Shown: positions 3,065 through 33,735 of the stretch, piece by piece | Position numbering within the stretch: the stretch's first letter is position 1 | How the letters are laid out: each line of letters starts with the position of its first letter | DNA from: a virus | DNA: 36,755 nt | IMG/VR virus record: IMGVR_UViG_3300023239_000019 | Location: 1 to 36,755 of that record | Reading direction: 5' to 3' (one strand) | Translations under genes and position numbers: made by a program | Notes under the pieces: model-generated | The model's database searches: none | What the model was told of the DNA's origin: nothing | What the model saw: the letters and a program-made list of their open reading frames with translations, nothing else

Positions 3065-3093
3065 ATTATATACTATAATTTGGAGCCTGTCAA
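3065..3093 (-). promoter_or_regulatory. Perfect-consensus sigma-70 (early) promoter for the glycosyltransferase operon
   Basis: On the minus strand, TTGACA (3093..3088), a 17-base spacer and TATAAT (3070..3065) match the bacterial sigma-70 consensus exactly. It lies in the 56-base gap between the 301-aa virion gene and the MDERL copy B gene. Initiation would fall near 3058, about 15 bases before the ATG at 3043. It should drive the overlapping genes from 3043 down to at least 93. Confidence 0.88.
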
Positions 3094-3099
3094 GTAAAA

Positions 3100-4031: not shown

Positions 4032-4039
4032 TATTTATA
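4032..4039 (-). promoter_or_regulatory. T4-type late promoter -10 element (TATAAATA)
   Basis: The minus strand reads TATAAATA at 4039..4032, the exact T4 late promoter consensus, 26 bases before the ATG at 4005. The TAA inside it (4037..4035) is also the stop codon of the upstream fibre gene. No -35 element is expected for gp55-type promoters. Confidence 0.75.
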
Positions 4040-5546: not shown

Positions 5547-5570
5547 ATTTAAATAACCCCTTGCTGTTAG

Positions 5571-5578
5571 TATTTATC
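5571..5578 (-). promoter_or_regulatory. Late promoter -10 element (GATAAATA)
   Basis: The minus strand reads GCGATAAATAC around 5580..5570, in the 37-base gap between two fibre genes and 24 bases before ATG 5546. The same GCGATAAATAC string recurs at 10221..10228 before another late gene. It differs from the T4 consensus only in the first base. Confidence 0.65.
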
Positions 5579-5583
5579 GCAAG

Positions 5584-9583: not shown

Positions 9584-10198
9584 TTATCCCTCGTTAAAGC
9601 CAGATAAACTTTGTACTCTAACTGTATAATCAATTTGAATTAGTCTATTAAGTGATTTTTGTACAGGATGAAAAATAACATGTGTTAAAAGTCTACCATT
9701 GCCGCCTGCACTGTATGCTCTTAGTCCTAGTTCGTCAAATACATAAAGACTATCCGGACTTGTTGCAGTGTCAAATGCATCTTGGCCGTTTGGCTCGCCA
9801 TAATCTAACAAACAAGTTACTAAAATATCAGTATAATTTGTACCACTCACATGGCGTGTTTCAATCTTGTTACGAGCAGGATCAAGATTGTTTACACTTC
9901 TATCATCTACTACTTTAGTAAATGTTTCGTTGTATAAACTAGCATTTGTGCCTGTGCTGTTTGGCGTCAAGTATGTAATAATACCTGTAGGGTCAACACT
10001 AGTGCCACCGTTGCCAAATCCCATTTGATAAATCCAGCCTGTGCCTGCATTGCCTAAACTTTCTGCAAGACTAATACTCATATTTTCATAATGAATAGCG
10101 TTGCGTTTGTCTACAATAACCTCTCCAGTCTCTGGATTGTGTATTTTAATGTGTCCTTGAAGTAACACACCACTTTGTTCATTTAATTTATCTGTCAT
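9584..10198 (-). CDS. Virion structural protein in the gp8 position (204 aa)
   Basis: The frame opens at a GTG at 10285, but ATG 10198 is preferred: a late promoter element lies at 10221..10228 and an AGGA site lies 10 bases before this ATG, while the longer form would begin inside the giant gene. The 204-residue product starts MTDKLNEQSGVLLQG. It contains IHNPETGEVIVDKRNAIHYE, a Gly-rich MGFGNGGTSVDP stretch, NYTDILVTCLLDYGEP, and ends with a beta-rich HPVQKSLNRLIQIDYTVR segment. From memory this is a conserved virion protein of marine T4-like phages. Its place after the giant gp7-position gene corresponds to T4 gene 8 (baseplate wedge), but I cannot confirm gp8 homology. It is co-transcribed with the collar-domain fibre. 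Confidence 0.75.
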   Translation of the reverse strand: MTDKLNEQSGVLLQGHIKIHNPETGEVIVDKRNAIHYENMSISLAESLGNAGTGWIYQMGFGNGGTSVDPTGIITYLTPNSTGTNASLYNETFTKVVDDRSVNNLDPARNKIETRHVSGTNYTDILVTCLLDYGEPNGQDAFDTATSPDSLYVFDELGLRAYSAGGNGRLLTHVIFHPVQKSLNRLIQIDYTVRVQSLSGFNEG

Positions 10199-10220
10199 TT
10201 GTTTTATATCCTGCTTATTG

Positions 10221-10228
10221 TATTTATC
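10221..10228 (-). promoter_or_regulatory. Late promoter -10 element (GATAAATA)
   Basis: The minus strand reads GCGATAAATAC here, 22 bases before the ATG at 10198. The TAA inside the element (10226..10224) is the stop codon of the giant gene. It supports the ATG at 10198 as the start of the downstream gene. Confidence 0.68.
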
Positions 10229-13200
10229 GCGGCAAGTCAACTGTTGCTGCACGTAAGAATCTACTAATGTCTGTATCTGATTCACCTAGAGGTGTCCCAA
10301 GTGCATTCCATACTATTCCGGTGTGTCTGACAATTGTTACTTTAACGTTTTCAATTGGTGTTTCCAATAATGTTAGTGCAGAACCGCTTATACTAAATTC
10401 TGCCGGCAAAGTTACATCGCCCTCTGGACTATCTTGTGCTGTCGGATTTGGCATTACATAAGAACTAATTGTATTTTTACGTAAACGTCTGCCTCCTACA
10501 AATACTTCAAATTCATTAACACTATTTGGAACAAAGTCTAACGGATATGTTGCCGTAGTGCCATCCGCTAAAAATTGCGAAGTTAGAGTTTCGTCTTTGT
10601 ATGGCATAGTTGCAGTTGGTCCTTGGTTATAAACATTTTCTCCTTCGAGATAAACTGTCTTAACACCAGTACCTAATGTACCTCTGCGTAGTTGACTTAG
10701 TACGTTACCATTTCTTACAAAGTATTCAATGCGTTCACCGTCTATAAACAATATTCCAGGAACACTGCTTGTTGGTGATGGTTCAGGTAAGGAAGATCCG
10801 TCTGTTACTGTAATACTCTGATCGTACCATTTTAGATCAGCGGCTAACATTACACCGTTTCTATCGTCAAGACGTTTGTAATGCGTTCTGTTGAGCATAT
10901 CTTTAAATTGGCTCCATCCATATTTGTTAACTAATACAGGATCTGCAAAATGTAGTAATTCAACTACATCATTTGCAGTGATTTCTACATTAATTTTAAC
11001 ATAACGCTTATTATTAGTTACATAATAATGTACACTAGGAATTAGCAAATCACCGTTAAGAGTTACCCAAACATATTGTGCATCTAATGCACGTCTTGAT
11101 AATTCAATTAATCCAGCAGTTAAGTGATTGTACTGATACCAATCAGCTGTTCCTACAGTTAACGAAATTCTATCTACAATATCATATTGCTGTCTATCAA
11201 ACCCTTGCGAATCATGGTTACTAAATTGATATACTGTAATAACATCGCCTTCGTTATATGCACTGTCAATATACAATGTACTCGGAGTTGAGACAAATTC
11301 ATTGCTCGAATCAAAATATCCATATCTATATTGACCATCACTAGTAATATAAACATTTAGTATATCACCGTCTTGTTGTTTAACTCGTGTTTTTAATCTA
11401 ACAATACTTCCGTTACCAGTGTAAGTCCAATCGAGATTATATGCTAATTCTACATTATTTAAGAACACTTTCATCTCTTTGTTGCTAATAGCCCCCAACG
11501 GAACTTGGAATTCTTCTAGTCGGTATTCACGGCTTGCGGCTGTTGTAATAAAGCGGCGTGTATATCCTGCATTTAGAATTTTATTATTAACCTTTACAAT
11601 ACTAAACCAAGCACTTGGCTCATTATTAAACGGAGTCTGATTTAACTCAAATGCTACTGTACTTCCGTCTGCTGTAAATGTATCAATAGACACTTCACTA
11701 AAGTTTTGTGTTGCACCACTAAAGAAAGCATAACTTATAACGCTTCCTGCTGCTGGTGGCGTAGCAAACGATATAACAACGTTGTTTGGATACTCGTAGG
11801 TGTTATCACTTTCTTGGATTACGTTAGATAATGTTTCGCCATTTAGTGTAACAAAGTACTGAAGATTTTCTACAAATCTTACATTAGTTAAGAATTTACT
11901 TGTAATTCCATCTGCAACAAAATTATCAATGTCTAATATATCTGTACCACTTACTCCTAGTACTGCTAAATGTATTTTAGCATTTAGTGCAGGTGCAGTA
12001 TTAAACGTCACTAACTTGTTAGCATAGTTAATAGTGTAATCTTCTGCTAATACAATATTATATTCTACTTTTACAAATAAGCTGTTTGCTTGCAACGGTG
12101 CTATATCTAGACTGAACGTCGTAGTTACTCCATCGCCTGTATAATTTCTTGAAGTAATTTGACTACTGCCGTTTTTTGGTCTTTCATATACTTTAATATC
12201 AACTGTATCAAGCAATTGTCCTGGAACTAATTCTTCTGGACCGCTGCTTGTAGTAGCAGTTACAAATCCGTCACCGTCAATAGTAATATCTTCTGCTCTT
12301 AACCCAGTGGCAGTCGAATAATTAAGATTTCCACCAGTAAGTATAGTGTCATAACTATTAGGCTCTGGAAGGTATGTGCCGTCACTAGTTGTTTTTCTAA
12401 TAATGATAATATCGCCTGCTTGGTTAGCAAGATCAAGTCCATCATTATCAAGGAATACAACAGTAGTAGTTCCGTCTCCTGTAATACTTTGACATATTGC
12501 ATTTGGATTAGTTACTGGGGTTGCAGTGCCGTAGTTGACGTCATCAACTCTTACACCGTTTTTATAAATGTTATAAACAACACCGCTTGCTAATGGTGCA
12601 GCAAGATCAAGACTTATAGTCGAACCATCAAGTTCAAAAATTTCATCTTCAAATGTAGTGTCATAACTATCCCACGTGTCTTCGTACCATCCATCTGCAT
12701 CCCATCCACGGCCGGGGCCGAAGCCAAAGCTCTTAACTTCAACACCGCCGTAATCTAACCCAGTCATAAGTTGATTTAGATCCTTGCCTGTCATTCCAAC
12801 TGTTGGAGTATAATAATTATTAATTCTGTCTTGTGCTTGCATTAAGCTAACAGTTTTTTTATACTCAACTCTTATTGATTTGCCGTTAGCCTGAGCTTCA
12901 GTAAACGAGATTTGTCCGTAATATCGATCATACCCTTTAGTAGTATCAAGTAAATTACTATAGGTATATTCACTGTTTAATGCTTCTTGATTATTAACGT
13001 ATACATTTATAGTCGACCTTGATAAGTCCATTGGCCATACTAAGTTAAACTCATACTTGTTGCCACTTGCTGTAAATGTTTCTGTTTGACTTATTATTGT
13101 ATAAACATATGTTCCTGTAGTTCTATCAAACTTAACAGTAGAATGTATTCCTCTAACTAGTCCATTGCCTATTTGTACACTATATGTTGCTTCTTCTCCG

Positions 13201-16200
13201 CCATCGACGATATTGTTTAGTGCTGACACTGTAGGAGCACTGTAGTATCCGCTACCTGCATTAACTACATCAACTTTAGTTACTTTGCCGTTGGTTCCGA
13301 TGTGTGCTTTTAACACGGCGCCTCCGCTGCCGCTTAATGTTAATTCAGGCGAACTTCTATATCCGCTACCCTGGTTTACTACTTTAACACTTGTAATTTT
13401 GTAACCGTTGTTATCTAACCAATTTTTATTTGGATAAGTTTCAACGTCAGCGTTGACACCAATTAATACACCATCTTGCACTTTAATGGACTGCGGAACA
13501 ATGTTACCTTCAACTACATTGTATGACGGTGGCAAGTCAAAGTCAGTAACAACTGTACTTGTATTATCAAGACCTTCGTATGCACTTAGATATTCTCTAA
13601 TTTTAGTACCGAACGGTTTAACTTCTTTAATATAGGCTTCATAACTTGGAAGGTTATCGTTATTAAAAGTAATATCTTCTCTTAACATTCCAACATTATG
13701 TTTTGCTTTAATAAAGCTAGTTTTGAATGCCCAATCGATATATGTTTGTTCACTAAATGCATATCTTAGACCTGCAAAGAATAATGCATTAAAACTAACT
13801 AATAGTTCGTCAATAAACAAATCATCTTTAATTGATGTTAATATAGTTCTAAGTTCAATTACCGGTTCACTATCATAAATTTTAGTATCAAAACTTATAG
13901 TATCAAAACCTGTAGAAGATTCAACAGTATCATATAGTGTAGATTTAAACTGTATTGTACCGTCTTGTCTACCAACAGTGTTGTAATTAACAGTGTAATC
14001 GCTAGTATTTTGATCATCTACTTTTTCTAATAATAACCAACCCCCTGTACCAACTGTTGATATCTTTACAACATCGCCAATGGTATCGTCTAATGCAGTC
14101 AATTCATAGCTATTGTCAATTAGATAATCAATCTCAGTTAATGCACTGTAACTAGTTGCATACCAATCTGCATAATCCCAATACAGTCTTACATTATAAC
14201 TTTGACTTTGAATTCTATTCCAAGTTCTAGTTTCACTAATTCTTTCGTATAGTGCCCATTTACCTTGTATAGCACTATCGCTATTAACTAAAACTGTAAA
14301 TCTTCTTACAGTTAGTGTAGGATTAGTATTATAGTATTCACCTGGTTCTACAACCGTAACTTCAGTAATTCTACCTAGGGCATCAATTGTAGTCTGGAAC
14401 TCTGCTCCTGTACCGGCGCCTGCAACTGTTACAGTTGGAGGCACTCTATAACCCCTACCCGGATTTACAATATCTACTCTTACAATCTTACCGTCTACAA
14501 CTACAGGAGACACTATAGCTTGTGTTGCTTTTGCAACACCTATAAATGCTAAATCATCTATTGTATCTACAGTTGCATCCCATATGTTAGTTACTTTTCC
14601 TGGTGCTGGATCCGCATTAAACAATGTAGTAAAGATCTTATCATCTACAATTAAGTTTTCTTTAAGGATAAGATTAGTGCGTTCAATGAATTGTTTTAAA
14701 GCTTCATAACGATTTGCAAACCAACTCTGTCTTGGTCTATTTAAAGAACCGTATTTTTGTTTTAGGCTTAACGTCGGATCAGGGACTACACGATTTTGTT
14801 CATCGTATCCAACTAAGCTGTCGTACCATTTTCTAATAATATCTCTGTTAGGTTGACTTGTTTCAAGGCCTTCAGATATAATTTGATATTGTGTATGAAC
14901 ATTTTGATCTTGATTTTGAATTGTCCAGAATTGCGTACTTAATGCTACGTCAGTACCTTTGATATATCCTTCTACATTATAGAGTACAAAACTGCTTGGA
15001 CTAATTAATCCAGCAAATGTATATCCTTTAGCAACAGGGTCAGCAATGTAATCTGCTACATCGCTAATGTTAATTTTTCTAAATTCTACATCGGGTGTAA
15101 TCTTTTTGTTAGCTACCCAGAAATAATAAGTTGTTTTAAACGTACCTGCTATACTGTCGTATTTGCGCTTAGTGCTGTATGCACTGTCACTGTGTAGACT
15201 AGTTCCGCTATAGCCTTTTGCAAATCCGTTTTCAGTATCTGCTGCTGCATCCCACACACTAGGTAATACATCAGACTCTACCCATTCGTATACATCAATA
15301 GTGCTACCTTGAAATACTTTAGTCCAATTTTGTGTGCTATAAATCACATTACCTTGATACGGATTATAGAATTTAGCATTAGTTAAATTCCACCATACTT
15401 CGCCAATATGGTCACTACCCCAGCTATTAGTTACATCAACAGTAGTTCCTCCAATTAGCGAAGTATCATATAATGCAGGATCATAATAAGTTTTAAATGT
15501 CAACTCTTGTTCAGCAACACCTGCTACTTTTCCTTGAATTGGATCAATATAATCGATATATGTTAATAATTCATTTTCCTTTGTATTGTAAAGGAACATC
15601 TTTTTAATCTTGTTAATATCAACTGTAGGTTTGGCAGCTCTATGAGTTGTCCACATAGTTGATAACTTGCTATTAGAAAAGTCTATTACTTGGCCAGTAT
15701 AAATGCCAGAAACTTTGGTTGGTAACCCAACATACAAGTGATTGTTTTTAGCAAGAATATTTCTACCAAAGTAGTTTACATCACTATCTGGTATTTGTAT
15801 TGTTTGTGCAAATAATAATTCCGACTCTATCTTTTCGTAAACGTATACAACTCCCACATCTTTATTAACTGTTTTAAAATCTGTAAAGCCGCTATCAAAC
15901 ACAGTAGTAAATGCGTCAAAGTACGTTTTAGTTTTTGAATCTGCACTTCTAGATGAAACGTGTAATTTTTCTCCGTCAAATTCTACTTTCCAACCAAACA
16001 TTTCAGCTCTCTCATTATTAGGACTGCTTAATGTTTGTGATTGAACAAATACTCCGTCAACTTGTTTATAGATATAGACAATGCCCTGATCTGCTTTGTA
16101 GTCGTCATTTAAAGGAGCGCTAATTGCAATTAACATTCCGTCAGTTGAGATTGACACTGAATACCCAAATGCCGATGTTTTATCAGGTGCATCTATTTCT

Positions 16201-19200
16201 TGCGATTTTTCAAAATGTCCTTTATTAGATCTATAAACTACTATTTGATTAGGCGACGTAACATCATATAATGCATTAACAACTAATACTTCTCCAGAAG
16301 TTGCAATATCAAATTGCGAACCAAATTCCTCAAGGCCAGTTTGATTTAATATAGTAAGTGTACTGTCGTCGCCTACACTAAGTCCAGTTGAGTTAGGAAT
16401 AAATCCAACGTAATCAACTAAATCGCTTGTCAAATTCCAATCGTTAAAATTAAATGCTCCAGCGGCAATATTAGTTTTTGCAACATATAGATCATTACTT
16501 AGATAAACAATGTCATTAGTAAAATAATTAAGACCTTGGCTAAATGTACCTTTAAAGTTTTTATTCTTTGCATAGTCCCAATTATAAGTTAGACTATTTT
16601 CTTCACCCTTTTTAATGAAATACAATCTACCCGGTAAGCTAGATGTTTTAGATCCTTCAGCGTGAACAAATCCTCTGTAAAGATTTCCGTTTTTAGTAAT
16701 TTTTATAGAACTACCAAGTTTAAAGTTTGCCTGTTTTTCAGGAACTGTGTAACTAGCTATACGATCGTATCTACCCGGTGCAGCTTTAGAATATATAGTA
16801 TAAAGACCTTCATTAGCTAGTCCGCTTGAAGTTCCCGTTGTTTCAGCTGGAATCTGATATACTTGTGTCCATTCGTTGTTAACTGCACTTGGAGAATTTG
16901 CAAGTCGAGGTATCCCTGACACAGTTGCAGTTGTATAAAACCAATATTCTATATCTAATAAACTAGATGATAGTGTTAGTGGTATAGTTGTTGGAGCTTC
17001 AAACACTAAAAGTTTGCCAATACCTTCGCTAGGTAAACCTAAGCTAACATATTGTATCTGTCCCATTGTTCTGTTGGCTTGATAAGTTGGACTAGGATCT
17101 CCAGGAATTAGGTTAAATCTAATTTCAGCATTTTGTCCATACACATCGCCTTCAGACCAAGTGCCTGTTAAACTCTTAATGAATACAGTTACATTAAGGC
17201 CTTTTCGTTGGTAGAATGCAACTACGCCAGTAGCGCCGGTTGTTAAGTCTGCTACAGTCTGTCCTACTTTAGGTTCAAATGGATTGCCAGCAGCATCAAA
17301 CTTTGTGTAGTTGAAGTTTATATAACCGTCCCATACATCATAAATTATCTGAGTAGCATTAGTAGTTGATGTTGATAATCCAATAGCTGTCAGGTCTCTA
17401 ATAATACTAGTACCGTATTGAGGTAGTTGATTAACATATAACTCAATATTGTATCCTTGAACAAATGCATCACTGATTGCTTTAGGAGCTCTAACTACAT
17501 ACAAGTTACTTAAGAACGGCGAGGTAGAACCATATGCACCTGGTAAACCTTGATAACTTAATTTTTGTATATAAGCATTATATGTATTTTGACTGCTAGT
17601 TGTAGCAGTGTTATAATCTAATGAATTATAGAATACTGTAGAAGCGTGTGCTATATCTGTAATAACATCGTAAAATACTAAACCTCTACCTTGATCTGTA
17701 TTTTCAGTAATAGCCGTTGGTGTATAACTAGGAGTATCAATATACCAGAAGCCGCCCAGTTGTGTGCTAGTATCAATACTATCACTCGGACCTTGTAAAA
17801 TATACTCACCAATAAAGTCACCGTCGTTACGGAATAAACTATCAGTACTGCTAAATGTACCATTAACGCCTGTTAAGTACATTACTACTTCCGCACCTAC
17901 ATTAAAAATATAATCAACTGTTCCAAGAGCAGTTTGAGTTTGCAGTATGTCGCCTAATTCTGGTTGAACAGTTGACGATCTAACATATAACACTACATCA
18001 ATTTTCTTTTGAATTGTGTGAGTTTGTTCTATAAATGCTGCATCAATCACTGCAAACGATCCGTTAAACGGTGAACGAGATGCAAGTGCTGCTAATCCTT
18101 GATTAGAGTATGTTGTTTGATTCCAGGCAAGTTTAATTTGATTGCCTACTCCGCTACCGTCATACTGCGCTAAGGGTGCTCTAATTAATAGATGTGTTAC
18201 TGGCTGGTTTAAAAATGCTAAGGATGCTTCATTAGGATCTATTGCATAATTTCCAACAAGTAATGTTGGTATAGATTCTGTACTAGTATTTTCTATATTT
18301 AATACATCAACAATATATGTTATAGAATTAAAACTATTAAACTGAATACTTGCTTCTTCACCTTCTATATCAACTAATGATTTCCATAATTGTTGATCTT
18401 TAGCAACAATTGAACCTTTGCCGTAATCACTGCCAGGAACAAACGTACCGGCATATTTTGTTTTAACATTTGACGCATTTGGTGATCCAACAATTACATA
18501 TGCTCCGTCTGGACTAACTGCAACTGCCGCGCCAAATTGTTCTAAATCATTACCAAACTTAAAGGGTTCGATAACTTGTGTTTGTACAAAGTTTATTGAA
18601 TCAGTGGCACGAGAATAAACATAAACTTTTCCGTCGCCCTGGTCTGGGGCTCCGACAATCAGTGTGGTATTTCTATCATCAACACTCATCGCAGTACCAA
18701 ATGATACATCTGACGATGTTGATGGTTTTGTTAATCTTAATTGCTCTGTAAATAAGTTTTCATTCTTAAGTACTGACCATTTACCTAGACCACTAACATT
18801 ATCAATCCATAGATAATCATTGGTGTCAAGATTTTGTTGTAATATAGTATTTGCTGAGGAAATATTAGCAGCACGCACTTTTAAGAAACGTGTAATAGAA
18901 CCTACACATTTAGTAATTTCTGTTTGTACAGTGGGTGTGAGCAAAGTAATAACATTTTTATCTACAGCAGATACAACATAGAAGCCATCTAAATCAAATT
19001 TTTCTGTAGTTGATGCTGCTATAGAATCCTCAGCAATATATTCTACATAGTTACTAAAACTATGTAATCCAATTACATCATCAACTTCAATGTCAGTAAC
19101 GTTAGTTGTAAGCGTTAGAGTAAACGAAGTAGTTCCAGCTGAAACTGCTTCAACTTCATAATCAGTGTCAACATGTTTATATACACCCCAATCAAGATTA

Positions 19201-22200
19201 TCATTTCCAACCCAGATATAATCAGTTATTTTAACATCTACAAAATTAAAATCAGCAATATTAGCATAACTTGTTGCAATACCACGAACATCTTCAGGAT
19301 TTACATATCCTGCATTTTTTACATAACTTGTATCTACATACTTTTCAGGGAAAGGTTTATGGTTGTAGTTAGGAGTTTTTTGGTAAACTTCATAAGGGAG
19401 TATTCTGTAGACTAGATCAGTTTCTGTTCCGGTTGTACTTGTTACTAAGTCAATTGGCTGAGGAGTTAATCTAAATTTACTTTCATCAAGTAATAATTCA
19501 TATTCTTCAAACCCATCACTTGCGCCGTATTGGCCGTCACGGATTGCCCATTCTTCGTAAAACTCTAAACTATCTTTATCAGCACTACTCAATACATCAA
19601 ATAGTTTTGTTAATGCATTTTTAGTACCTTTGTCCTGTATCATACCTTGATAAAATTTATACTGACTCACATCATCATTAATAATATTTTCAAGGTATTG
19701 ACGTTTCTGATAACCGATTAAGTGTTGCGCCATGCGCTGTTGCTCAGTATCAAAATTGTCTGAATCTAAGTCATAAAAATCTGCAAACTGATTAGTTTTG
19801 TATTCAAAGTTTGCATATAGTCCTGCTTCGGGTTTTTCGTTTAAGCGATTCCAGTCATTTGCATCAAAAGATTCTGCCCCAGATAATTTAGTAGATGCAC
19901 TGTAGTAAAACTCTTTATATTTTACAATACTACCAATTGCATAATCCGTCCAAGACTCCCAAGTTGTTGCCTTAGCATCATCATATATAAATCCGGGAAT
20001 ATTTAAACTGCCGTCCCATTCTTGAGTAACATATCCAAGAACTTTAATTCTTTCCTGTCTGTAACCCGGTTGTGTATCATAAATGATATCACCAAATACA
20101 GTCTTATTATCAATCAATAACACATGCTCTTTTTGTACAAGAGGAAGTTTAACAGCAAACACACCGTCGGCGGTATTTCTTGGACGAATAATAAACTCGT
20201 TAGGCGAACGTCCTAATGTTGAAAATTCCTGTACTAATTTTGTACCGTCTGATTGAAGCAAACTGTATCCGTAGAAACTATCAAAGATATTATCTACCAT
20301 TGAATACTCTGATACAAATTTTAATTGTGTAGCTGCTGGGCTTAATGTAATAACACTGCCTTCGCCCCAGTTTTGTGTAGTCCAGAATAAGAATTCATTT
20401 ACACTGTGGCGCCAGTTTAATACAACCTTTGCATCGCCTTCGTAGTAATCAAATACAAATCCTTGGTCCATTAAGTACTCACCGTAGCCTAATAGAAAGT
20501 CGACTACGTCTTGGATAGTAACAAATAATTGTCCGTAATCTGCTTCAAGAACAATATTTTTATTAAACTTTCTTCTTACAAATGCAGTTCTGCCGCCAAT
20601 TAACGGTAGCGCAGGTAGTTTAACAAGATTAGTTGTATCAAAATCTGTACTGCTTATAAAGTTAGATTTTACTCTATAATATGCACCCTGGTATTCAATA
20701 TTTTGTCCGGCAACATATTGTTTGCCGCTATCCCATATTAAGTAACTTTCACTAATTCCGCCAATGTTAATACTAGGATCTGATTGTGTAGATATTGCTG
20801 CATAATAATTAAAAGATGCAATTTCAGTATCATACCCTTTAATCACGTAGCCGTCACTTCTGCGCTCTACAATGACACCACTGTAAGAAACAGTTTTAAT
20901 AGGAGTACTTGTGTTTAAGAATATTTTATAGTTTTCATCTGGAACAAATACATTGCCCTCATTTAACGGTGTGCGACTATCTAATATTAATCTAAACTTG
21001 TCCTTATCAGTAAATCCTGCTAGCTTGTATCCTAACTGATTTTTAATAGTTCTAATGTTTGATTTGTAGGCAGTGTACGATGTTGTTATATCAGCTGCCA
21101 TATAATTTGCAATATAGTTTACAACACCACTAGTATAAACTTGAACTGTGTCTTCATATGTATTTGGAAATACAATATCAGATAATTTTATTCTAGTATT
21201 TGTTTTAGCATATATTAAATCGCCTGAAATGTTTCTTACTTGATTAATTCTATCAAACCCAGTAGCAAATAGCATATGTGGTTTGTTAATTGCAAATGCG
21301 GTAATAACACTAAACGGATATTGGCTACTTGCTCTCCAAGCACTTTCAATAGGGGCGCCATCGCCGAATACAAAACTTTCATCTAACAATTGGTTATCAA
21401 AATAATTGATATAGCCTGACTCAATAGGAGATAATAAATTACCTTCACTATTAACCGGCAAGTGGTTAGTTAACCCTGGGCGTTTATAATTATTAAGTAT
21501 TTTATATTTTACGCCAGGTTGTCTTACAATACCTGCTTCGATATCTTGCCATAAAAGCAAGTTCTCTTTGGTGTAGGGAGCAGGGCCGTACTGTGTTTCC
21601 CACCACGTAGGCATAACTGTAAACCCAAGCATTTCCCAAGGGTGTGTATGCGGGCGATCAGTATCGTAGGCTTGCTGGTAAATCTGTCTCCAGAAGCCCG
21701 GTAATACCGCACCAGTAGGACCAGTACTACCTGCGTAGTTAAATGTAAACGAGTTAGCTCTATCAAAGAAATTATGTAATGTGTAATCTTGGTCAATTAG
21801 TTTTGTCCACTGCAAAAAGTCAGCTAGTATTACTCTATCAATTTGACGTTTACTAACTGCTGTATTTCTGTAGTCACCGCCGATAAGACTATGTATGTTT
21901 AAGAAATTAGTATCGTATCCTACTTTAATGTTATTAAAAATTCTTTTTTCAAGTTCTAGTAATAAGTCATCTCTATAATCATCAAACGCTGCAATCTTAC
22001 TACCGTCGTGTCCTTGAATAATATATCTCGGAGTTTGATAGGTATCGTCTAAGTATTTTGCAGGCTCGTATGAAGGATACAGGCCTAGCTTGCTTGGCGT
22101 AGGTGGAACGTAACTGCCGTTAGTAGTTTCATATTCATATATATCAACTATATCATCAGGCTGTTTAGCCGCTGTAATTAAAACATAACCTTCAGTGTTA

Positions 22201-25058
22201 AACGTATAATCTCTACCTTGAACTAATTGTACTTCATTTAAGTATACTTGCACTGCTATTCTTGAAGGTGTACTTAATGAAAATGCTGTTGACAACGGGT
22301 AATACAATTCGTCGGCATCAATTACGGCAGTAGTTAGTTTCTTAGTTGCACCGGTAGGAATCATGTCACTAAAGAAAAACGGTTGTGTAGAAGTTTTATC
22401 TTTATTAATTTCTGTTAGAATTGCATCTACATGTGATTTAATAGTACCGCTAAAACTTATATCTTCTGCTGTCTGTAAGAATAATCTTTTAAAAGTTGAG
22501 TATTGCAGCATTGCAAACTTTAAACTTTTTACAACATTTGCATCGTTATCTAACATATGATACATTGCAAGATTCATTGGTGAACTATGTTGTACAAATC
22601 TACGACCTAGTTCTGTTACATTTCCAATATCTCTTAAATTACTTGTACCCGGATATGTTCCTACAAATTCATCATTTTGTTCTACAATAGTAGCAACGTG
22701 ATCATTTACTTCGCCAAGCGTAAATTCTGTAATATTTTCATTTCCAGGATTTCTTTCTAAGGAAGCTGGAATTTCATAATACCCGTTTGCATTTTTTGTA
22801 GCTGCACTACGTGCCTTAATAAGAACTACGTCATTTAAAGTTAATGAATTTATAAATGTTACTATTGCATTATTATTAACATTAGTAGTAATAGTATAAT
22901 CTGTACCTTCAAATTGTAATTTATTGTTTAAATATACTCTTGTCCAAAGATCAGTTAATAGGCCACTATTGTCATACATGTCAATAATAAACCCAACACT
23001 AGTATTGTCAAATATATATTGTCTAATTACTAGTTGTTCGCTAAGTACATTAATTTTTTTCCAACCTGATAAGGTAATATATGTATCTAATGCAGAATAT
23101 TTTCTTAAAAATCCAATATCAGTATTTTTAGTAAAAGCGTTATTTACAGATGTGTAGGTAAACGAATCAAATAATAAATTAAAATCAAAAACAATGTCAC
23201 CGACATTATTAATACTTCTATAAGAAAGTGGAAACTTTAACTCGTCATCAGGTGTGCCATTTCCTACTCGATAACTAAACAGTTTGTTCCCTGCAAATGT
23301 TGAAGACGGGTATACAGTTGTGTCTGCATAAGATTTACCGTTAATATCAAAAATATCAAATAACGGAGGCTGATTAGCTTGTGTTTTATCTTGTGTAAGT
23401 TTCCACTCTATACCAGTATAATACAACATCTTACCTTTGTAAGTTGTGCCATTTAATACTAACACAACTTCATTAGTTTGTGGAACTGAATCAGTTTCTG
23501 GAATTAATGTGATTTGCCTGTTAGTTGCGGCACCACTTGCAAAGTTAATAAATTGAACTTTAAAAATTCGACCAGATACTAATATATCAGTGTCTGCTGT
23601 AAACATAATACGCATGCCGTCGGCAAGATCAATGCCATCAACGTTGTATCCTGGCGATCCTTCAATAGTTGAAAATGCATCTATCGTAAAATCATCAACT
23701 AAATTAACATCTGTTTTAGCAACAGTACCAAATTGATTTAATTTTAGATCTGCTTCAAATTCAATAATAGGACGTTTAGCACGTTGTAACTGATCTACAT
23801 CAACAATTTGTCCATTTGCTGTTGCTGCTGTTTCAATAACACTTTTATGAAACCAACGGTTATAACGACTCCACAAGTTGCCGTCGATACTTGCACGATT
23901 GATTACGATGTAATCTTTATCTTCTGGATAGCCAATTGCTACGCTGTAAGGAAGTCTATCAAATCCTTGTGCATCAAATTCTACATCAATATTAGCAGTA
24001 AATGCTGTTGGAACATTTAAACTTGTTTCTGCAATAAGATTAATACGACTACCAACACCTTCAACATAAAATGTAACGTTTGCATAAGCAGCGGGTTCTA
24101 CTTCGCCGGTAAACTCAATTTTCATTCCGTTTGATAGTTCTATACCATTACTACTTTTATAGAAACGCTTACCGACTACTTCTTTTTCAACATCAATAAA
24201 AGTTGCTTCGCTAATGTCTTTAACAATAATAGTACCACTTGCTTCTAGGTCGTTTGCTGCTACATAGTATAATACTTCAGGGGTATCTGTACCTAATTGT
24301 AATGTACTAATACCTTTTTCTAGTCCCTGTACACTAACACCTTCAAGCACTAGAATACTTGAACTATCTAACTCAAATCCGTCTTCAAGTGTTCTCTTTG
24401 TCTTAATTGTAAATGGTAAGTTTGGAGTATCAATATCAAACTTGTAGGTAATTCCTCTATAAAGAGTAATTGTAGGGTTTTGTGTTAATCCGTCTGGACT
24501 GAATACATAAGTGTTATTATCAACATTATCACCGATGCGAACAGTGTAAGTACTTTCAACATCAACTGTATTCCCTGCAATTCCAATTGTCTGCGGACCT
24601 AAAGGTAACCAGTAGTATTCACGAAAGTTACTAAACTTATCCCAATCAATACTAGGATTCCATGCATATTGTTCTTGCTGGTTGAACACACTATGATTGT
24701 CGTTAGATTTATTAAAATTGTTTAACTGATTAACAAAGTCGTTATAGTCTTTGTAAAAAGTAACATTATCTAAATTGTCTTTGATAACTGCCGCTGGTTC
24801 TAATTGATAGTTAAACCTATCAGCTGATACATCACCGATATAATTGTCACTCGCAGTAAATGCTCTAGCAGTTTCTCTACCAATATATCCGTTGAGTTTT
24901 TGAACTACGCCTGGCTGTATTAATTGGTCTAATGTACTATTTAAAAACTTCTTGTTTGGAATTGTTCTAAAAAATCTTGGAAGGAAAGATTCACTGCTGC
25001 GTTTGTTAGTGCCGTCTGCTGGCAACGCTGATTCATTTTGGTCGTTATCGTAAGACAT
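10224..25058 (-). CDS. Giant virion protein, probable baseplate/fibre component in the gp7 position (4944 aa)
   Basis: An uninterrupted 14.8-kb frame encodes about 540 kDa. It follows gp6 by 2 bases (GGAGG 12 bases before ATG 25058) and occupies the place of T4 gene 7, a 1032-residue wedge protein, so it is probably baseplate-attached. No short motif proves gp7 homology. Architecture seen: an N-terminal ~170 residues (SESFLPRFFRTIPNKKFLN, YIGRETARAF, EYYWLPLGP) that could be the docking region; long beta-rich repeats; aromatic Y-x-x-G-x-x-V modules near residues 1446, 1703, 2209 and 2846; seven FG-GAP-like blades between ~2110 and 3110; paired GxGY repeats near 3530 and 3920; and a C-terminal array of DG-T-x-x-F beta repeats from ~3990. 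No signal peptide, membrane helix or protease motif was noticed. It may be a large adhesive arm. Confidence 0.85.
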   Translation of the reverse strand: MSYDNDQNESALPADGTNKRSSESFLPRFFRTIPNKKFLNSTLDQLIQPGVVQKLNGYIGRETARAFTASDNYIGDVSADRFNYQLEPAAVIKDNLDNVTFYKDYNDFVNQLNNFNKSNDNHSVFNQQEQYAWNPSIDWDKFSNFREYYWLPLGPQTIGIAGNTVDVESTYTVRIGDNVDNNTYVFSPDGLTQNPTITLYRGITYKFDIDTPNLPFTIKTKRTLEDGFELDSSSILVLEGVSVQGLEKGISTLQLGTDTPEVLYYVAANDLEASGTIIVKDISEATFIDVEKEVVGKRFYKSSNGIELSNGMKIEFTGEVEPAAYANVTFYVEGVGSRINLIAETSLNVPTAFTANIDVEFDAQGFDRLPYSVAIGYPEDKDYIVINRASIDGNLWSRYNRWFHKSVIETAATANGQIVDVDQLQRAKRPIIEFEADLKLNQFGTVAKTDVNLVDDFTIDAFSTIEGSPGYNVDGIDLADGMRIMFTADTDILVSGRIFKVQFINFASGAATNRQITLIPETDSVPQTNEVVLVLNGTTYKGKMLYYTGIEWKLTQDKTQANQPPLFDIFDINGKSYADTTVYPSSTFAGNKLFSYRVGNGTPDDELKFPLSYRSINNVGDIVFDFNLLFDSFTYTSVNNAFTKNTDIGFLRKYSALDTYITLSGWKKINVLSEQLVIRQYIFDNTSVGFIIDMYDNSGLLTDLWTRVYLNNKLQFEGTDYTITTNVNNNAIVTFINSLTLNDVVLIKARSAATKNANGYYEIPASLERNPGNENITEFTLGEVNDHVATIVEQNDEFVGTYPGTSNLRDIGNVTELGRRFVQHSSPMNLAMYHMLDNDANVVKSLKFAMLQYSTFKRLFLQTAEDISFSGTIKSHVDAILTEINKDKTSTQPFFFSDMIPTGATKKLTTAVIDADELYYPLSTAFSLSTPSRIAVQVYLNEVQLVQGRDYTFNTEGYVLITAAKQPDDIVDIYEYETTNGSYVPPTPSKLGLYPSYEPAKYLDDTYQTPRYIIQGHDGSKIAAFDDYRDDLLLELEKRIFNNIKVGYDTNFLNIHSLIGGDYRNTAVSKRQIDRVILADFLQWTKLIDQDYTLHNFFDRANSFTFNYAGSTGPTGAVLPGFWRQIYQQAYDTDRPHTHPWEMLGFTVMPTWWETQYGPAPYTKENLLLWQDIEAGIVRQPGVKYKILNNYKRPGLTNHLPVNSEGNLLSPIESGYINYFDNQLLDESFVFGDGAPIESAWRASSQYPFSVITAFAINKPHMLFATGFDRINQVRNISGDLIYAKTNTRIKLSDIVFPNTYEDTVQVYTSGVVNYIANYMAADITTSYTAYKSNIRTIKNQLGYKLAGFTDKDKFRLILDSRTPLNEGNVFVPDENYKIFLNTSTPIKTVSYSGVIVERRSDGYVIKGYDTEIASFNYYAAISTQSDPSINIGGISESYLIWDSGKQYVAGQNIEYQGAYYRVKSNFISSTDFDTTNLVKLPALPLIGGRTAFVRRKFNKNIVLEADYGQLFVTIQDVVDFLLGYGEYLMDQGFVFDYYEGDAKVVLNWRHSVNEFLFWTTQNWGEGSVITLSPAATQLKFVSEYSMVDNIFDSFYGYSLLQSDGTKLVQEFSTLGRSPNEFIIRPRNTADGVFAVKLPLVQKEHVLLIDNKTVFGDIIYDTQPGYRQERIKVLGYVTQEWDGSLNIPGFIYDDAKATTWESWTDYAIGSIVKYKEFYYSASTKLSGAESFDANDWNRLNEKPEAGLYANFEYKTNQFADFYDLDSDNFDTEQQRMAQHLIGYQKRQYLENIINDDVSQYKFYQGMIQDKGTKNALTKLFDVLSSADKDSLEFYEEWAIRDGQYGASDGFEEYELLLDESKFRLTPQPIDLVTSTTGTETDLVYRILPYEVYQKTPNYNHKPFPEKYVDTSYVKNAGYVNPEDVRGIATSYANIADFNFVDVKITDYIWVGNDNLDWGVYKHVDTDYEVEAVSAGTTSFTLTLTTNVTDIEVDDVIGLHSFSNYVEYIAEDSIAASTTEKFDLDGFYVVSAVDKNVITLLTPTVQTEITKCVGSITRFLKVRAANISSANTILQQNLDTNDYLWIDNVSGLGKWSVLKNENLFTEQLRLTKPSTSSDVSFGTAMSVDDRNTTLIVGAPDQGDGKVYVYSRATDSINFVQTQVIEPFKFGNDLEQFGAAVAVSPDGAYVIVGSPNASNVKTKYAGTFVPGSDYGKGSIVAKDQQLWKSLVDIEGEEASIQFNSFNSITYIVDVLNIENTSTESIPTLLVGNYAIDPNEASLAFLNQPVTHLLIRAPLAQYDGSGVGNQIKLAWNQTTYSNQGLAALASRSPFNGSFAVIDAAFIEQTHTIQKKIDVVLYVRSSTVQPELGDILQTQTALGTVDYIFNVGAEVVMYLTGVNGTFSSTDSLFRNDGDFIGEYILQGPSDSIDTSTQLGGFWYIDTPSYTPTAITENTDQGRGLVFYDVITDIAHASTVFYNSLDYNTATTSSQNTYNAYIQKLSYQGLPGAYGSTSPFLSNLYVVRAPKAISDAFVQGYNIELYVNQLPQYGTSIIRDLTAIGLSTSTTNATQIIYDVWDGYINFNYTKFDAAGNPFEPKVGQTVADLTTGATGVVAFYQRKGLNVTVFIKSLTGTWSEGDVYGQNAEIRFNLIPGDPSPTYQANRTMGQIQYVSLGLPSEGIGKLLVFEAPTTIPLTLSSSLLDIEYWFYTTATVSGIPRLANSPSAVNNEWTQVYQIPAETTGTSSGLANEGLYTIYSKAAPGRYDRIASYTVPEKQANFKLGSSIKITKNGNLYRGFVHAEGSKTSSLPGRLYFIKKGEENSLTYNWDYAKNKNFKGTFSQGLNYFTNDIVYLSNDLYVAKTNIAAGAFNFNDWNLTSDLVDYVGFIPNSTGLSVGDDSTLTILNQTGLEEFGSQFDIATSGEVLVVNALYDVTSPNQIVVYRSNKGHFEKSQEIDAPDKTSAFGYSVSISTDGMLIAISAPLNDDYKADQGIVYIYKQVDGVFVQSQTLSSPNNERAEMFGWKVEFDGEKLHVSSRSADSKTKTYFDAFTTVFDSGFTDFKTVNKDVGVVYVYEKIESELLFAQTIQIPDSDVNYFGRNILAKNNHLYVGLPTKVSGIYTGQVIDFSNSKLSTMWTTHRAAKPTVDINKIKKMFLYNTKENELLTYIDYIDPIQGKVAGVAEQELTFKTYYDPALYDTSLIGGTTVDVTNSWGSDHIGEVWWNLTNAKFYNPYQGNVIYSTQNWTKVFQGSTIDVYEWVESDVLPSVWDAAADTENGFAKGYSGTSLHSDSAYSTKRKYDSIAGTFKTTYYFWVANKKITPDVEFRKINISDVADYIADPVAKGYTFAGLISPSSFVLYNVEGYIKGTDVALSTQFWTIQNQDQNVHTQYQIISEGLETSQPNRDIIRKWYDSLVGYDEQNRVVPDPTLSLKQKYGSLNRPRQSWFANRYEALKQFIERTNLILKENLIVDDKIFTTLFNADPAPGKVTNIWDATVDTIDDLAFIGVAKATQAIVSPVVVDGKIVRVDIVNPGRGYRVPPTVTVAGAGTGAEFQTTIDALGRITEVTVVEPGEYYNTNPTLTVRRFTVLVNSDSAIQGKWALYERISETRTWNRIQSQSYNVRLYWDYADWYATSYSALTEIDYLIDNSYELTALDDTIGDVVKISTVGTGGWLLLEKVDDQNTSDYTVNYNTVGRQDGTIQFKSTLYDTVESSTGFDTISFDTKIYDSEPVIELRTILTSIKDDLFIDELLVSFNALFFAGLRYAFSEQTYIDWAFKTSFIKAKHNVGMLREDITFNNDNLPSYEAYIKEVKPFGTKIREYLSAYEGLDNTSTVVTDFDLPPSYNVVEGNIVPQSIKVQDGVLIGVNADVETYPNKNWLDNNGYKITSVKVVNQGSGYRSSPELTLSGSGGAVLKAHIGTNGKVTKVDVVNAGSGYYSAPTVSALNNIVDGGEEATYSVQIGNGLVRGIHSTVKFDRTTGTYVYTIISQTETFTASGNKYEFNLVWPMDLSRSTINVYVNNQEALNSEYTYSNLLDTTKGYDRYYGQISFTEAQANGKSIRVEYKKTVSLMQAQDRINNYYTPTVGMTGKDLNQLMTGLDYGGVEVKSFGFGPGRGWDADGWYEDTWDSYDTTFEDEIFELDGSTISLDLAAPLASGVVYNIYKNGVRVDDVNYGTATPVTNPNAICQSITGDGTTTVVFLDNDGLDLANQAGDIIIIRKTTSDGTYLPEPNSYDTILTGGNLNYSTATGLRAEDITIDGDGFVTATTSSGPEELVPGQLLDTVDIKVYERPKNGSSQITSRNYTGDGVTTTFSLDIAPLQANSLFVKVEYNIVLAEDYTINYANKLVTFNTAPALNAKIHLAVLGVSGTDILDIDNFVADGITSKFLTNVRFVENLQYFVTLNGETLSNVIQESDNTYEYPNNVVISFATPPAAGSVISYAFFSGATQNFSEVSIDTFTADGSTVAFELNQTPFNNEPSAWFSIVKVNNKILNAGYTRRFITTAASREYRLEEFQVPLGAISNKEMKVFLNNVELAYNLDWTYTGNGSIVRLKTRVKQQDGDILNVYITSDGQYRYGYFDSSNEFVSTPSTLYIDSAYNEGDVITVYQFSNHDSQGFDRQQYDIVDRISLTVGTADWYQYNHLTAGLIELSRRALDAQYVWVTLNGDLLIPSVHYYVTNNKRYVKINVEITANDVVELLHFADPVLVNKYGWSQFKDMLNRTHYKRLDDRNGVMLAADLKWYDQSITVTDGSSLPEPSPTSSVPGILFIDGERIEYFVRNGNVLSQLRRGTLGTGVKTVYLEGENVYNQGPTATMPYKDETLTSQFLADGTTATYPLDFVPNSVNEFEVFVGGRRLRKNTISSYVMPNPTAQDSPEGDVTLPAEFSISGSALTLLETPIENVKVTIVRHTGIVWNALGTPLGESDTDISRFLRAATVDLPR
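10270..13090 (-). repeat. C-terminal beta-repeat array of the giant protein
   Basis: Roughly residues 3990-4930 of the giant protein contain at least six related units with the pattern (T/V)-G/A-DG-x-T-x-x-F-x-L, then V-x-x-N/Y-x-x-x-L, then a DYT-like strand. Examples are NYTGDGVTTTFSLD, NFVADGITSKFLTN, TFTADGSTVAFELN and QFLADGTTATYPLD. The repeat is divergent at the DNA level. Such units are typical of stacked beta-sandwich domains in phage fibres. Confidence 0.6.
13210..13410 (-). repeat. Second GxGY repeat pair in the giant protein
   Basis: Two consecutive units of the form V-x-V-V-N-x-G-S-G-Y-x-S-x-P are seen (VKVVNQGSGYRSSPELTL and VDVVNAGSGYYSAPTVSA), around residues 3890-3950. Confidence 0.65.
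14300..14510 (-). repeat. First GxGY repeat pair in the giant protein
   Basis: Two units of the same family as the pair at 13210..13410 are seen around residues 3517-3585: VDIVNPGRGYRVPPTVTV and a degenerate VTVVEPGEYYNTNPTLTV. The second has lost the final GY spacing glycine. Confidence 0.6.
15720..18740 (-). other. Probable seven-bladed FG-GAP beta-propeller with a long insertion, inside the giant protein
   Basis: Seven short segments match the FG-GAP blade pattern (FG-x-x-x-x-x-(S/T/D)-x-(D/N)G-x-x-x-(V/I)-x-x-P). They are SFGTAMSVDD near residue 2119, QFGAAVAVSPDG near 2165, FKLGSSIKITKNG near 2781, EFGSQFDIATSG near 2916, AFGYSVSISTDG near 2966, MFGWKVEFDG near 3022 and YFGRNILAKNN near 3099. 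The count fits a closed seven-bladed propeller as in integrin alpha chains. Between blades 2 and 3 lie about 600 residues of other beta-rich sequence. Confidence 0.6.
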
Positions 25059-28636: not shown

Positions 28637-29086
28637 TTAATTGGCTAAAAATCCGTTATTTTGGTCAAATATTAATTGCATATTTTCTACAATATTGTAG
28701 GGTAAAAATATCAATGTTGCTTCTATTTGTAAGCCACTTTCGTACTGATCAACTACTATGTTAGTAACACTTACTCTAGGATCGTAGTTAATAATAGTAG
28801 TTACATTTTCAGCAATAATCTGTTTGATATTTTCAGTTAATGGTTCATATAGAATGTCCCAAATAATTGTACCAAAATTAGGATTGCTTAAAAGTTCGCC
28901 TTGACGAATATGAAAGTGATTAATAATATCTTGTTTTACAATTTGTAAATCATACAGTTGAAATCCAACATTGTTTGGATTAACTGTAGAAAATCCCCTA
29001 TAGGTTTTTTCACCTATACCATAGTCAGGACGAGTAGTACCTTTTACAGTAATTTGTTTATAAAGATTTTTCTCTAGTGTGCTCAT
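28637..29086 (-). CDS. 25: Baseplate wedge protein gp25 (149 aa)
   Basis: This is a gp25/GPW-type baseplate protein, conserved from phages to type VI secretion (TssE). It joins wedges near the sheath and, with gp6 and gp53, forms the wedge core that starts sheath polymerisation. Diagnostic features are a central helix-turn segment (YDLQIVKQDIINHFHIRQGE), then LSNPNFGTIIWDILYEPL, a variant of the family's RxFGxxLxxxLFEP motif, then an ITNIVV-type strand (SVTNIVVDQYESG) and a hydrophobic strand (EATLIFLPYNIVENMQL). The length is close to the T4 protein (132). ATG 29086 lies 12 bases after the gp5 stop with an AAGG site 10 bases upstream, so it is co-transcribed with gp5. Confidence 0.92.
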   Translation of the reverse strand: MSTLEKNLYKQITVKGTTRPDYGIGEKTYRGFSTVNPNNVGFQLYDLQIVKQDIINHFHIRQGELLSNPNFGTIIWDILYEPLTENIKQIIAENVTTIINYDPRVSVTNIVVDQYESGLQIEATLIFLPYNIVENMQLIFDQNNGFLAN

Positions 29087-29098
29087 ACTGTATTTACC

Positions 29099-30673
29099 TT
29101 AATCTTGTCGGCCTGTTCTAGACACAGTACTAGTAACTGTTGCTGCTCCGGCTCTTGCTTGCCTTAAAATAGCATCATCATAAGGCGGTGTAGTAACTGC
29201 TCCTGCTCTTGCTTCTGCTTCTCCTGCTGCTCCTTCGGAACTTGCACCTGATGCATTTCTCGAAGGTGTGCTTGTAACAGTTGTATTACTTATTGCTGCT
29301 CGTTCTGCTGATGTTAATCCCGATGCTGCAACTGTACCCGGAGCACATTTTTCATACGTATCTCCTAAAGGCACTGTAGCACCGTCTTTTACAGCAACCG
29401 GAGTTCCAGATGCACTTCCTGATCCGCTAGGTATTACCGATGGCGGAGACGGGGCCGCAGCAACTGCTGCCGCCGGCCCGTTCATATGTATAACCGATGC
29501 AGTTTCGTAATGGCCTGCACTAGCAATATTACTAGTTCCTGCGCAAGTTAATCTACCGTCAGCGCCCACTAATAAATCCCAGTTTGCACCAGTTTGTGTT
29601 GCCATCTGATTTGCTGCAACTATATTAACATCTGCTCCAGCTTTTAAATTAATATTTTTTGCAGCAGTAAAATTTATATCATTATCTGATTTAAAACTAA
29701 TATTGTTTTTTGAATAAACTTCTATTGCTCCGCCGGCTGTCATTTCAATCCAACTTTGACCACTTCCGTGTGCAATATACACTAAGTCTTCTGTATTGTG
29801 GAAAAGTATCTGATGTCCTGTACGTGTTCTAATTCTTACTAATTCGTTCATAGGCAGTGTTGGATCACCGCCTTGATCTAATGTTGCATATTCACTAGGA
29901 GTTGTTGCAGCTGGGCCTTTTCTATACAAACTAGGATCGCCATCATCCATTACAAAAGTTGAACCAGTTAGTCTCGATGATGGAATTTCTGTTTGTGCAT
30001 TTTCAGCACCTACTTTTACTTTAGGCTTTCCTGGTCTACGGTCTAGCGGGCCGGGTGTACTCATTCCAAATACCATACTAGGTACTTCTCGTCTAGCACT
30101 GGAACTAGTAGTGCCTCTAATTGGATCACTAAGTAAGCCGGCTTTAGTAAGTTGTGCTATTGCATCCGTGTTAACAGGTTTTAAAAACTGCGTAGGGTCG
30201 TTACCAACGCCTGGTTCATTTCTTTTGTTGTATTCTCCAACAGGAGAAATTGCAGTTTGATTTTCTTTGTTGTATTTTGTACTTGCATTTCCAGGTACCA
30301 TAAAGTTCATAAACTTTTCTTGTACACAGCCGATCCAAAATCCTCGACTTTTATTTCCTTCTGCAAATATAACTAGTACTTGTGTCCCGACGTCCGGTGG
30401 CACTGCCCACATTCCGTAACTTTTTTGAGTATAATCAAATCCGTTGTTGTCGCTTGTTCCGTCGTAAGGTGTAATTCCGTAAAACGGACTTAGATAACTT
30501 ACTATTGCCATTTCGCCAGTAACGTCTGTGGTGTTTCCTTCAGTTGATGATTTTAACAATTCAACTTCTAGTGAACCCATGTACTCAGTGTCTAAGTGAT
30601 TGCGCACCACAGCCAAAAAGGGACCAGGGCCTTCAAATATATTATCACCTGGGGTTCTTGCTTCTGTTGCCAT
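29099..30673 (-). CDS. 5: Baseplate hub spike protein gp5 without an evident lysozyme domain (524 aa)
   Basis: The N-terminal ~115 residues fit the gp5 OB-fold domain (FLAVVRNHLDTEYMGSLEVELL, YGMWAVPPDVGTQVLVIFAEG, RGFWIGCVQE) that binds the hub. Residues ~290-390 form the spike: a WIEMTAGGAIEVYSKNNI start, then alternating repeats (SFKSDNDINFTAAKNINLKAG), typical of the triple-stranded beta-helix. The region between (about 120-260) is a Pro/Gly/charged linker containing RREVPSMVFGMSTPGP and no recognisable T4-lysozyme domain. The family member therefore probably pierces without enzymatic wall digestion, as I recall for marine T4-like phages. The C-terminal ~130 residues are Ala/Gly/Ser/Pro-rich and end with a motif (478-511) shared with the neighbouring hub protein. 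ATG 30673 has AAGGA 7 bases upstream. Confidence 0.9.
   Translation of the reverse strand: MATEARTPGDNIFEGPGPFLAVVRNHLDTEYMGSLEVELLKSSTEGNTTDVTGEMAIVSYLSPFYGITPYDGTSDNNGFDYTQKSYGMWAVPPDVGTQVLVIFAEGNKSRGFWIGCVQEKFMNFMVPGNASTKYNKENQTAISPVGEYNKRNEPGVGNDPTQFLKPVNTDAIAQLTKAGLLSDPIRGTTSSSARREVPSMVFGMSTPGPLDRRPGKPKVKVGAENAQTEIPSSRLTGSTFVMDDGDPSLYRKGPAATTPSEYATLDQGGDPTLPMNELVRIRTRTGHQILFHNTEDLVYIAHGSGQSWIEMTAGGAIEVYSKNNISFKSDNDINFTAAKNINLKAGADVNIVAANQMATQTGANWDLLVGADGRLTCAGTSNIASAGHYETASVIHMNGPAAAVAAAPSPPSVIPSGSGSASGTPVAVKDGATVPLGDTYEKCAPGTVAASGLTSAERAAISNTTVTSTPSRNASGASSEGAAGEAEARAGAVTTPPYDDAILRQARAGAATVTSTVSRTGRQD
29141..29242 (-). repeat. C-terminal SSEGAAGEA / YDDA motif in gp5
   Basis: Residues 478-489 of gp5 (SSEGAAGEAEAR) and 498-511 (YDDAILRQARAGAA) match the C-terminal motifs of the adjacent 915-aa protein (see 30720..30911). 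The order is the same: one Ser-Glu-Gly-x-Ala-Gly-Glu-Ala unit, a short linker, then YDDA-x-L-R. Confidence 0.75.
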
Positions 30674-33432: not shown

Positions 33433-33735
33433 TTATATTCCTAATACTTTTGATAATGCGGCGCCTTTGGGTACATAAATTTGTATTCCTGCTATTAAAT
33501 CAAATACAGGATCTTTAAGTATTTCCATATTGCGTTGGGCAAAAACCCACCATAAGTCTTTATCGCCATATAAGTCAAATGCTAACAGATCAGGGCGATG
33601 TGTATACTGAGGCTGTATTGTAACTAATACATCGTCTGATTCTGCAGGGATAGGTCGTATTTTTAAAATGTCAAGATACTGACCTTCTTGTGTAGGTGTG
33701 TTAAACCAAGGACTAGTTCCAATATAATTTGCCAT
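33433..33735 (-). CDS. 53: Baseplate wedge protein gp53 (100 aa)
   Basis: A compact gp53-type wedge protein. After an N-terminal SPWFNTPTQEGQYLDIL comes the characteristic core THRPDLLAFDLYGDKDLWWVFAQRN split across residues ~46-70, then FDLIAGIQIYVPKGA, a LysM-like ending. T4 gp53 is 196 residues, so this is the short form that, from memory, marine T4-like phages carry. It helps bind wedges together around the hub during baseplate assembly. Its ATG overlaps the stop of the gp48 gene (TAATG), and its own stop lies 1 base before the next ATG, so all three genes should be translated from one late transcript starting near 34635. Confidence 0.9.
   Translation of the reverse strand: MANYIGTSPWFNTPTQEGQYLDILKIRPIPAESDDVLVTIQPQYTHRPDLLAFDLYGDKDLWWVFAQRNMEILKDPVFDLIAGIQIYVPKGAALSKVLGI

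Follow-up and report, generated by a model that had tools for sequence, protein, structure and literature searches.

In contractile tails, two copies of gp6 and one of gp7 (BW2 and BW3) make the core bundle of the baseplate wedge (PMC10457771), and BW3 proteins, which lie at the baseplate periphery, are the usual platform for receptor-binding proteins (PMC10811340). Kyanoviridae carry a true giant gp7 (phrog_2885): the "baseplate wedge initiator" of P-TIM68 has 4307 aa, is encoded behind gp25 and gp6, and matches T4 gp7 on a segment with FYS.KG...A...LFK.LY (hhalign probability 95-96.5%). PHROG 10938, a giant "virion structural protein" of jumbo myoviruses, is an already known, widespread, and structurally unsolved family, with the members RaK2 gp465/ORF070, 121Q gp582, CBB_236, phAPEC6 gp245, PA5oct gp355, Atu_ph07 gp180, and AP-J-162 gp58. 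Orthologue lengths are 3326 aa in RaK2, 3323-3333 in 121Q, 3340-3344 in CBB, 3771 in the Vibrio phage, 3807 in SCTP-2, 3857 in PA5oct, 4449 in Atu_ph07, and 4555 in Phosso. The giant gene lies behind the gp25 and gp6 genes in PA5oct, Atu_ph07, and Phosso, and behind gp6 in RaK2, 121Q, CBB, and others. PHROGs places the family under "head and packaging", whereas gene position indicates the baseplate. The find reported below is not new in itself; what is new is the connection between PHROG 10938 and an aquatic lineage, an anatomy of chassis and insert, and a weak gp7-core signal.

The stretch of DNA analyzed here (the window), probably a fragment, spans the 36,755 bases of an IMG/VR virus record. 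Its minus-strand ORF at 10224-25058 runs from an ATG for 4944 codons without an internal stop, and the predicted product has 552 kDa, a pI of 4.6, and two cysteines. GGAGGG stands 12 nt upstream of the ATG, which itself lies 2 nt past the end of the gp6-like gene. The whole ORF recurs gap-free in IMG/VR contig 3300037332_000116 (>99.9% DNA identity), and the 87-kb contig 3300007522_000367 likewise has a 4944-aa ORF; with these gap-free copies in two other contigs, assembly error is ruled out. A single frame (4922-5330 aa) is kept in 18 of the 20 related contigs examined. Compared with five relatives (72.8-85% amino-acid identity), each 500-codon block gave a dN/dS of 0.06-0.27, and purifying selection acts along the full length of the gene. 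The ORF is one real protein-coding gene, and the single unbroken 14.8-kb frame described in an earlier note on this DNA stands.

In L075/L122 the giant gene is in two frames with a 194-nt gap; a natural split into two genes was considered and ruled out, the gap being absent from the sister contigs L073/L074. The gene is also in two frames in the relative L114. The giant proteins of L110 and L111 have 5330 and 5155 aa, respectively, with the extra sequence in the insert and/or the C-terminal region.

The giant protein belongs to PHROG 10938 (profile search: E = 0, 1064 bits). In tblastn, ~90 annotated phages were matched, all at <60% identity and typically at 25-30%, mainly RaK2/121Q-type enterobacterial jumbo phages, PA5oct-type Pseudomonas phages, Atu_ph07, Phosso, SCTP-2, and Vibrio 2.275.O. 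Scanning IMG/VR with the profile returned >580 matching stretches, some on contigs >450 kb. The window protein is homologous to and collinear with the PHROG 10938 members along the chassis (24-30% identity) and has the same place after gp6; as in the relatives with the full 25-6-7 order, its gene follows those of gp25 and gp6, and the gp6-like partner keeps its conserved N-terminal domain. It differs in length (4944 vs. 3326-4555 aa), mainly through a 1119-aa insert with an FG-GAP propeller. Coordinates are collected in Table 1.

Orthologues have been found in virions. CBB_236, the product of the CBB giant gene, was detected by mass spectrometry with 21 unique peptides (PMC5259590). In phAPEC6, gp245 (381.88 kDa, 17 peptides) comes immediately after wedge gp244 (PMC7247149), and its size and place point to the giant-protein orthologue. 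PA5oct gp355 is annotated with ESI-MS/MS, and PMC11242549 lists AP-J-162 gp58 (4455 aa), encoded behind wedge genes, among structural proteins. By analogy with these orthologues, the window protein, whose phage is known from metagenome alone, would be a virion protein, in agreement with the earlier proposal of a virion protein in the gp7 position. The giant protein ranks among the largest virion proteins of phages.

Table 1 Features of the giant gene and its neighbors in the window
Feature	Coordinates	Strand	Basis or remark
Giant virion structural protein, gp7 position	10224..25058	-	4944 aa; phrog_10938 E=0
Residues 1-200, conserved N-terminal chassis segment	24459..25058	-	Covered by jumbo orthologues
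Residues 171-224, module common to cyanophage tail proteins	24387..24548	-	phrog_677 E=2e-6
Residues 381-1965, conserved chassis 1	19164..23918	-	~1490-1824 aa long in every member compared
Residues 1442-1464, CBM_5_12 (chitin-binding type 3)-like module	20667..20735	-	Sub-threshold
Residues 1697-1740, second CBM_5_12-like module	19839..19970	-	Predicted structure
Residues 1769-1844, candidate gp7/BW3 core motif (..FY.G.I..KGT.NA..KLF..)	19527..19754	-	Predicted helices
Residues 1966-3084, variable insert	15807..19163	-	Alignment
Residues 2116-3130, FG-GAP blades, beta-propeller	15669..18713	-	PF14312 E=1.5e-16
Residues 3085-3870, conserved chassis 2	13449..15806	-	Confident predicted fold, without solved relative
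Residues 3508-3581, G-x-GY beta module	14316..14537	-	Common to cyanophage gp7 (phrog_2885) and other tail proteins
Residues 4725-4797, small beta module	10668..10886	-	Also in cyanophage gp7 N-terminus; hhalign probability 88%
Small protein, phrog_11259, ~200 aa	9584..10285	-	After giant gene in most relatives
gp6-like baseplate wedge protein (BW2), 1171 aa	25061..28576	-	phrog_10646 5e-295; phrog_219 1e-24
gp25-like wedge protein	28637..29086	-	Profile match
gp5-like hub protein	29099..30673	-	Profile match
gp53-like wedge protein	33433..33735	-	

We aligned the window protein with eight jumbo-phage and 15 metagenomic relatives. Residues 1-200, 381-1965, and 3085-3870 are found in all aligned members, at near-constant length in most, and these ~2500 residues are a conserved chassis. 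Between its two large segments lies the insert, of 83 aa in RaK2, 143 in the Vibrio phage, 227 in PA5oct, 363 in SCTP-2, 1119 in the window, ~1290 in Atu_ph07 and Phosso, and 1311 in one IMG relative; the inserts of Atu_ph07 and Phosso are similar in length to that of the window, but FG-GAP was not detected in them. By inspection, the FG-GAP region of the window protein has ~7 blade-like units, of which blades 2 and 3 are separated by ~570 residues. FG-GAP_2 is present in only three of 10 members tested, presumably the window protein and two metagenomic relatives of that set. CBM_5_12 was matched at E ≤ 0.01 in seven of 10 members and weakly in the window protein. The second module of this kind (residues 1697-1740) is absent from all eight aligned jumbo-phage orthologues; its model resembles ChiC chitinase binding domains, AvsCIS 7b5h_AE, and Milano 8fqc_P1/Q1 (Foldseek E of 0.03-0.16 only), the AvsCIS and phage Milano matches being baseplate or receptor proteins. 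The module at residues 171-224, which may be cupredoxin-like, is absent from RaK2/121Q. Repeat modules are confined mainly to the insert and the C-terminus, and the bulk is not the mosaic of adhesion-type repeats pictured earlier. The FG-GAP and CBM_5_12-like modules are putative sites of surface or glycan contact.

A modular layout is also what one would expect of a polyprotein, that is, one chain cleaved into several virion proteins as the particle assembles, and the low mass-spectrometric coverage of the orthologues (7.6-7.7% in CBB and phAPEC6) is compatible with cleavage. The two chassis halves nevertheless stay in one frame across the family, and we regard a polyprotein as very improbable.

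The AlphaFold2 model of residues 1470-1965 was middling (pLDDT 68, pTM 0.38), with helices at 1751-1762, 1771-1781, 1796-1809, and 1813-1823; Foldseek returned no gp7 among its top matches, model confidence being low in the helical part. Residues 3085-3900 were modeled better (pLDDT 76, pTM 0.58), and this model, covering chassis 2, matched nothing in the PDB with Foldseek, and the Atu_ph07 structural protein and uncultured-phage relatives in a viral library. A PDB sequence search with the whole giant protein also returned nothing.

We then have to ask whether the protein is a gp7. Direct comparison of the giant protein with the T4 gp7 profile (phrog_964) and T4 gp7 alignment gave no significant match (probability <1%). 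Residues 1-400, which the earlier note had singled out for comparison with gp7, gave no signal (hhalign probability ≤1%) and were dropped as a gp7 candidate. Matches of cyanophage N-termini in tblastn were dropped as evidence of gp7 homology as well; they fall on residues ~154-330, a mobile module also present in tail-fibre proteins. When the whole protein was scanned against the cyanophage gp7 core, the sole standout was 1769-1844, carrying FYQGMIQDKGTKNALTKLF. With a deeper alignment its probability was 19-27%, which is below usual significance; the maximum over 60 column shuffles was 1.1%, and a comparison believed to be true, the gp6 family against T4 gp6, scored 17.8% on the same yardstick. 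The 88% match at residues 4725-4797 is a small beta module apart from the gp7 core.

The window protein and the giant gp7 of Kyanoviridae share the gp25-gp6-gp7 place, the G-x-GY and other beta modules, and possibly a KGT core motif. The cyanophage core is, however, N-terminal and clearly gp7-like, whereas the candidate core of the window protein lies at about residue 1800 and is barely detectable, and the window chassis and the cyanophage protein are unrelated by sequence. With T4 gp7 and other BW3 proteins (XM1 gp17, pyocin PA0619, P2 gpI), the window protein shares gene position; like them, it would be expected to partner two gp6 copies and to serve as a platform for receptor-binding proteins. 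It differs in size (1032 aa in T4 and 242 in XM1 vs. 4944) and has no significant direct sequence or fold match to them.

A search with phrog_964 for a separate gp7 in seven complete jumbo genomes found none; the same search recovers T4 and P-TIM68, although a diverged small gp7 could escape a profile search. By this result, the giant protein is the only gp7 candidate found in the seven genomes, and the conserved baseplate gene block holds no other. Gene position, the lack of a separate gp7, and the short motif at 1769-1844 make a gp7 role likely; with its gp7 link consisting of motif and position, we do not assign the protein to the gp7 family. The giant protein could instead be a peripheral platform decorating the baseplate, with the wedge core supplied by a small, diverged gp7/gpI encoded elsewhere in the genome. 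This would agree with a gp7 similarity that is a short weak motif, with the absent fold match, and with residues 1-400 being unrelated to gp7, but it sits poorly with the gene block, with the phrog_964 result, and with the succession of gp6 and giant gene in the relatives inspected; we consider it rather unlikely.

We therefore read the window protein as an aquatic version of the RaK2/PA5oct/Atu_ph07-type giant baseplate protein, filling the gp7/BW3 wedge slot, forming the periphery, and bearing mounted modules (probability roughly 0.62). The protein would occupy the gp7/BW3 slot of each baseplate wedge, and its conserved chassis would bind two gp6-like subunits and form the baseplate periphery. 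Lineage-specific modules on the chassis (the FG-GAP propeller insert and the chitin-binding-like domains) would hold fibre proteins or touch host-surface glycans. Six copies per tail would add ~3.3 MDa, and the protein may signal to sheath contraction.

The earlier note had suggested a giant arm or whisker, extending to the host and taking the place of the T4 long tail fibres. The protein has adhesion-type modules, as such fibres do, its chain is very long, and Atu_ph07 is without T4-like tail fibre proteins. No similarity to T4 gp34-37 was found, however, and RaK2, whose long tail fibres consist of nine proteins from a cluster of their own (PMC10253068), also encodes the 3326-aa orthologue, so the replacement of fibres is unsupported. 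The same coexistence is seen in other relatives: 121Q encodes an annotated long-tail-fibre subunit (gp571), CBB_226 is a long-tail-fibre subunit detected by mass spectrometry (PMC5259590), and MIJ3 has long fibres by TEM. Close relatives carry fibre-type S74 domains elsewhere on their contigs. Since the window is only a fragment of 36.7 kb, fibre genes missing from it carry no weight. Nor does the gene follow tail hairs, which CBB and phAPEC6 have and which are unreported for GAP32, another carrier of the giant gene. With the chassis conserved across very different hosts, an arm or whisker seems improbable.

Several observations concern neighboring genes. In Salicola phage SCTP-2 (L004 5624-14914), the gene upstream of the giant gene is unannotated and encodes 3096 aa, far above the gp6 size in other relatives, so that giant wedge proteins may be encoded by two adjacent genes in this phage. 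The ORF at 9584-10285 is listed with 233 aa and begins at a GTG inside the giant gene; since relatives have ~198-201 aa, translation probably begins at the ATG that comes right behind the giant stop codon. Its product was considered as gp8, gp9, or gp11 and dropped, with no match to any of the three. The three consecutive collar/fibre-type proteins at 4035-9578 (701, 630, and 503 aa) have the same N-terminal domain, which suggests a duplicated attachment domain with different tips. At 93-494, the ORF has 133 aa, against 303 aa in a sister contig (L307 9047-9958); the window has either a deletion here or an error at its contig end. Clusters of radical-SAM-like and glycosyltransferase-like genes adjoin the tail genes (L307, which is G001 contig 40001-58000, and L306), and annotated radical SAM genes are likewise near tail genes in Atu_ph07 and Phosso (L002, L005); their products might act as modifiers of glycans or of virion proteins.

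Jumbo phages and cyanophages alike have giant proteins in the gp7 place, and such proteins are frequent in metagenomes from water; PHROG 10938 is annotated as "virion structural protein" only, with no solved relative of the chassis in the structure searches made here. It is possible, if doubtful, that the ~2500-residue chassis is a distinct wedge architecture uniting gp7 and perhaps other T4 peripheral wedge roles in one chain, and that the slot at residues 1965-3085 swaps receptor-contact modules while assembly interfaces stay untouched. With its fixed chassis and its variable internal insert, the family offers a testable model of baseplate construction and of variation in host contact among very large phages.
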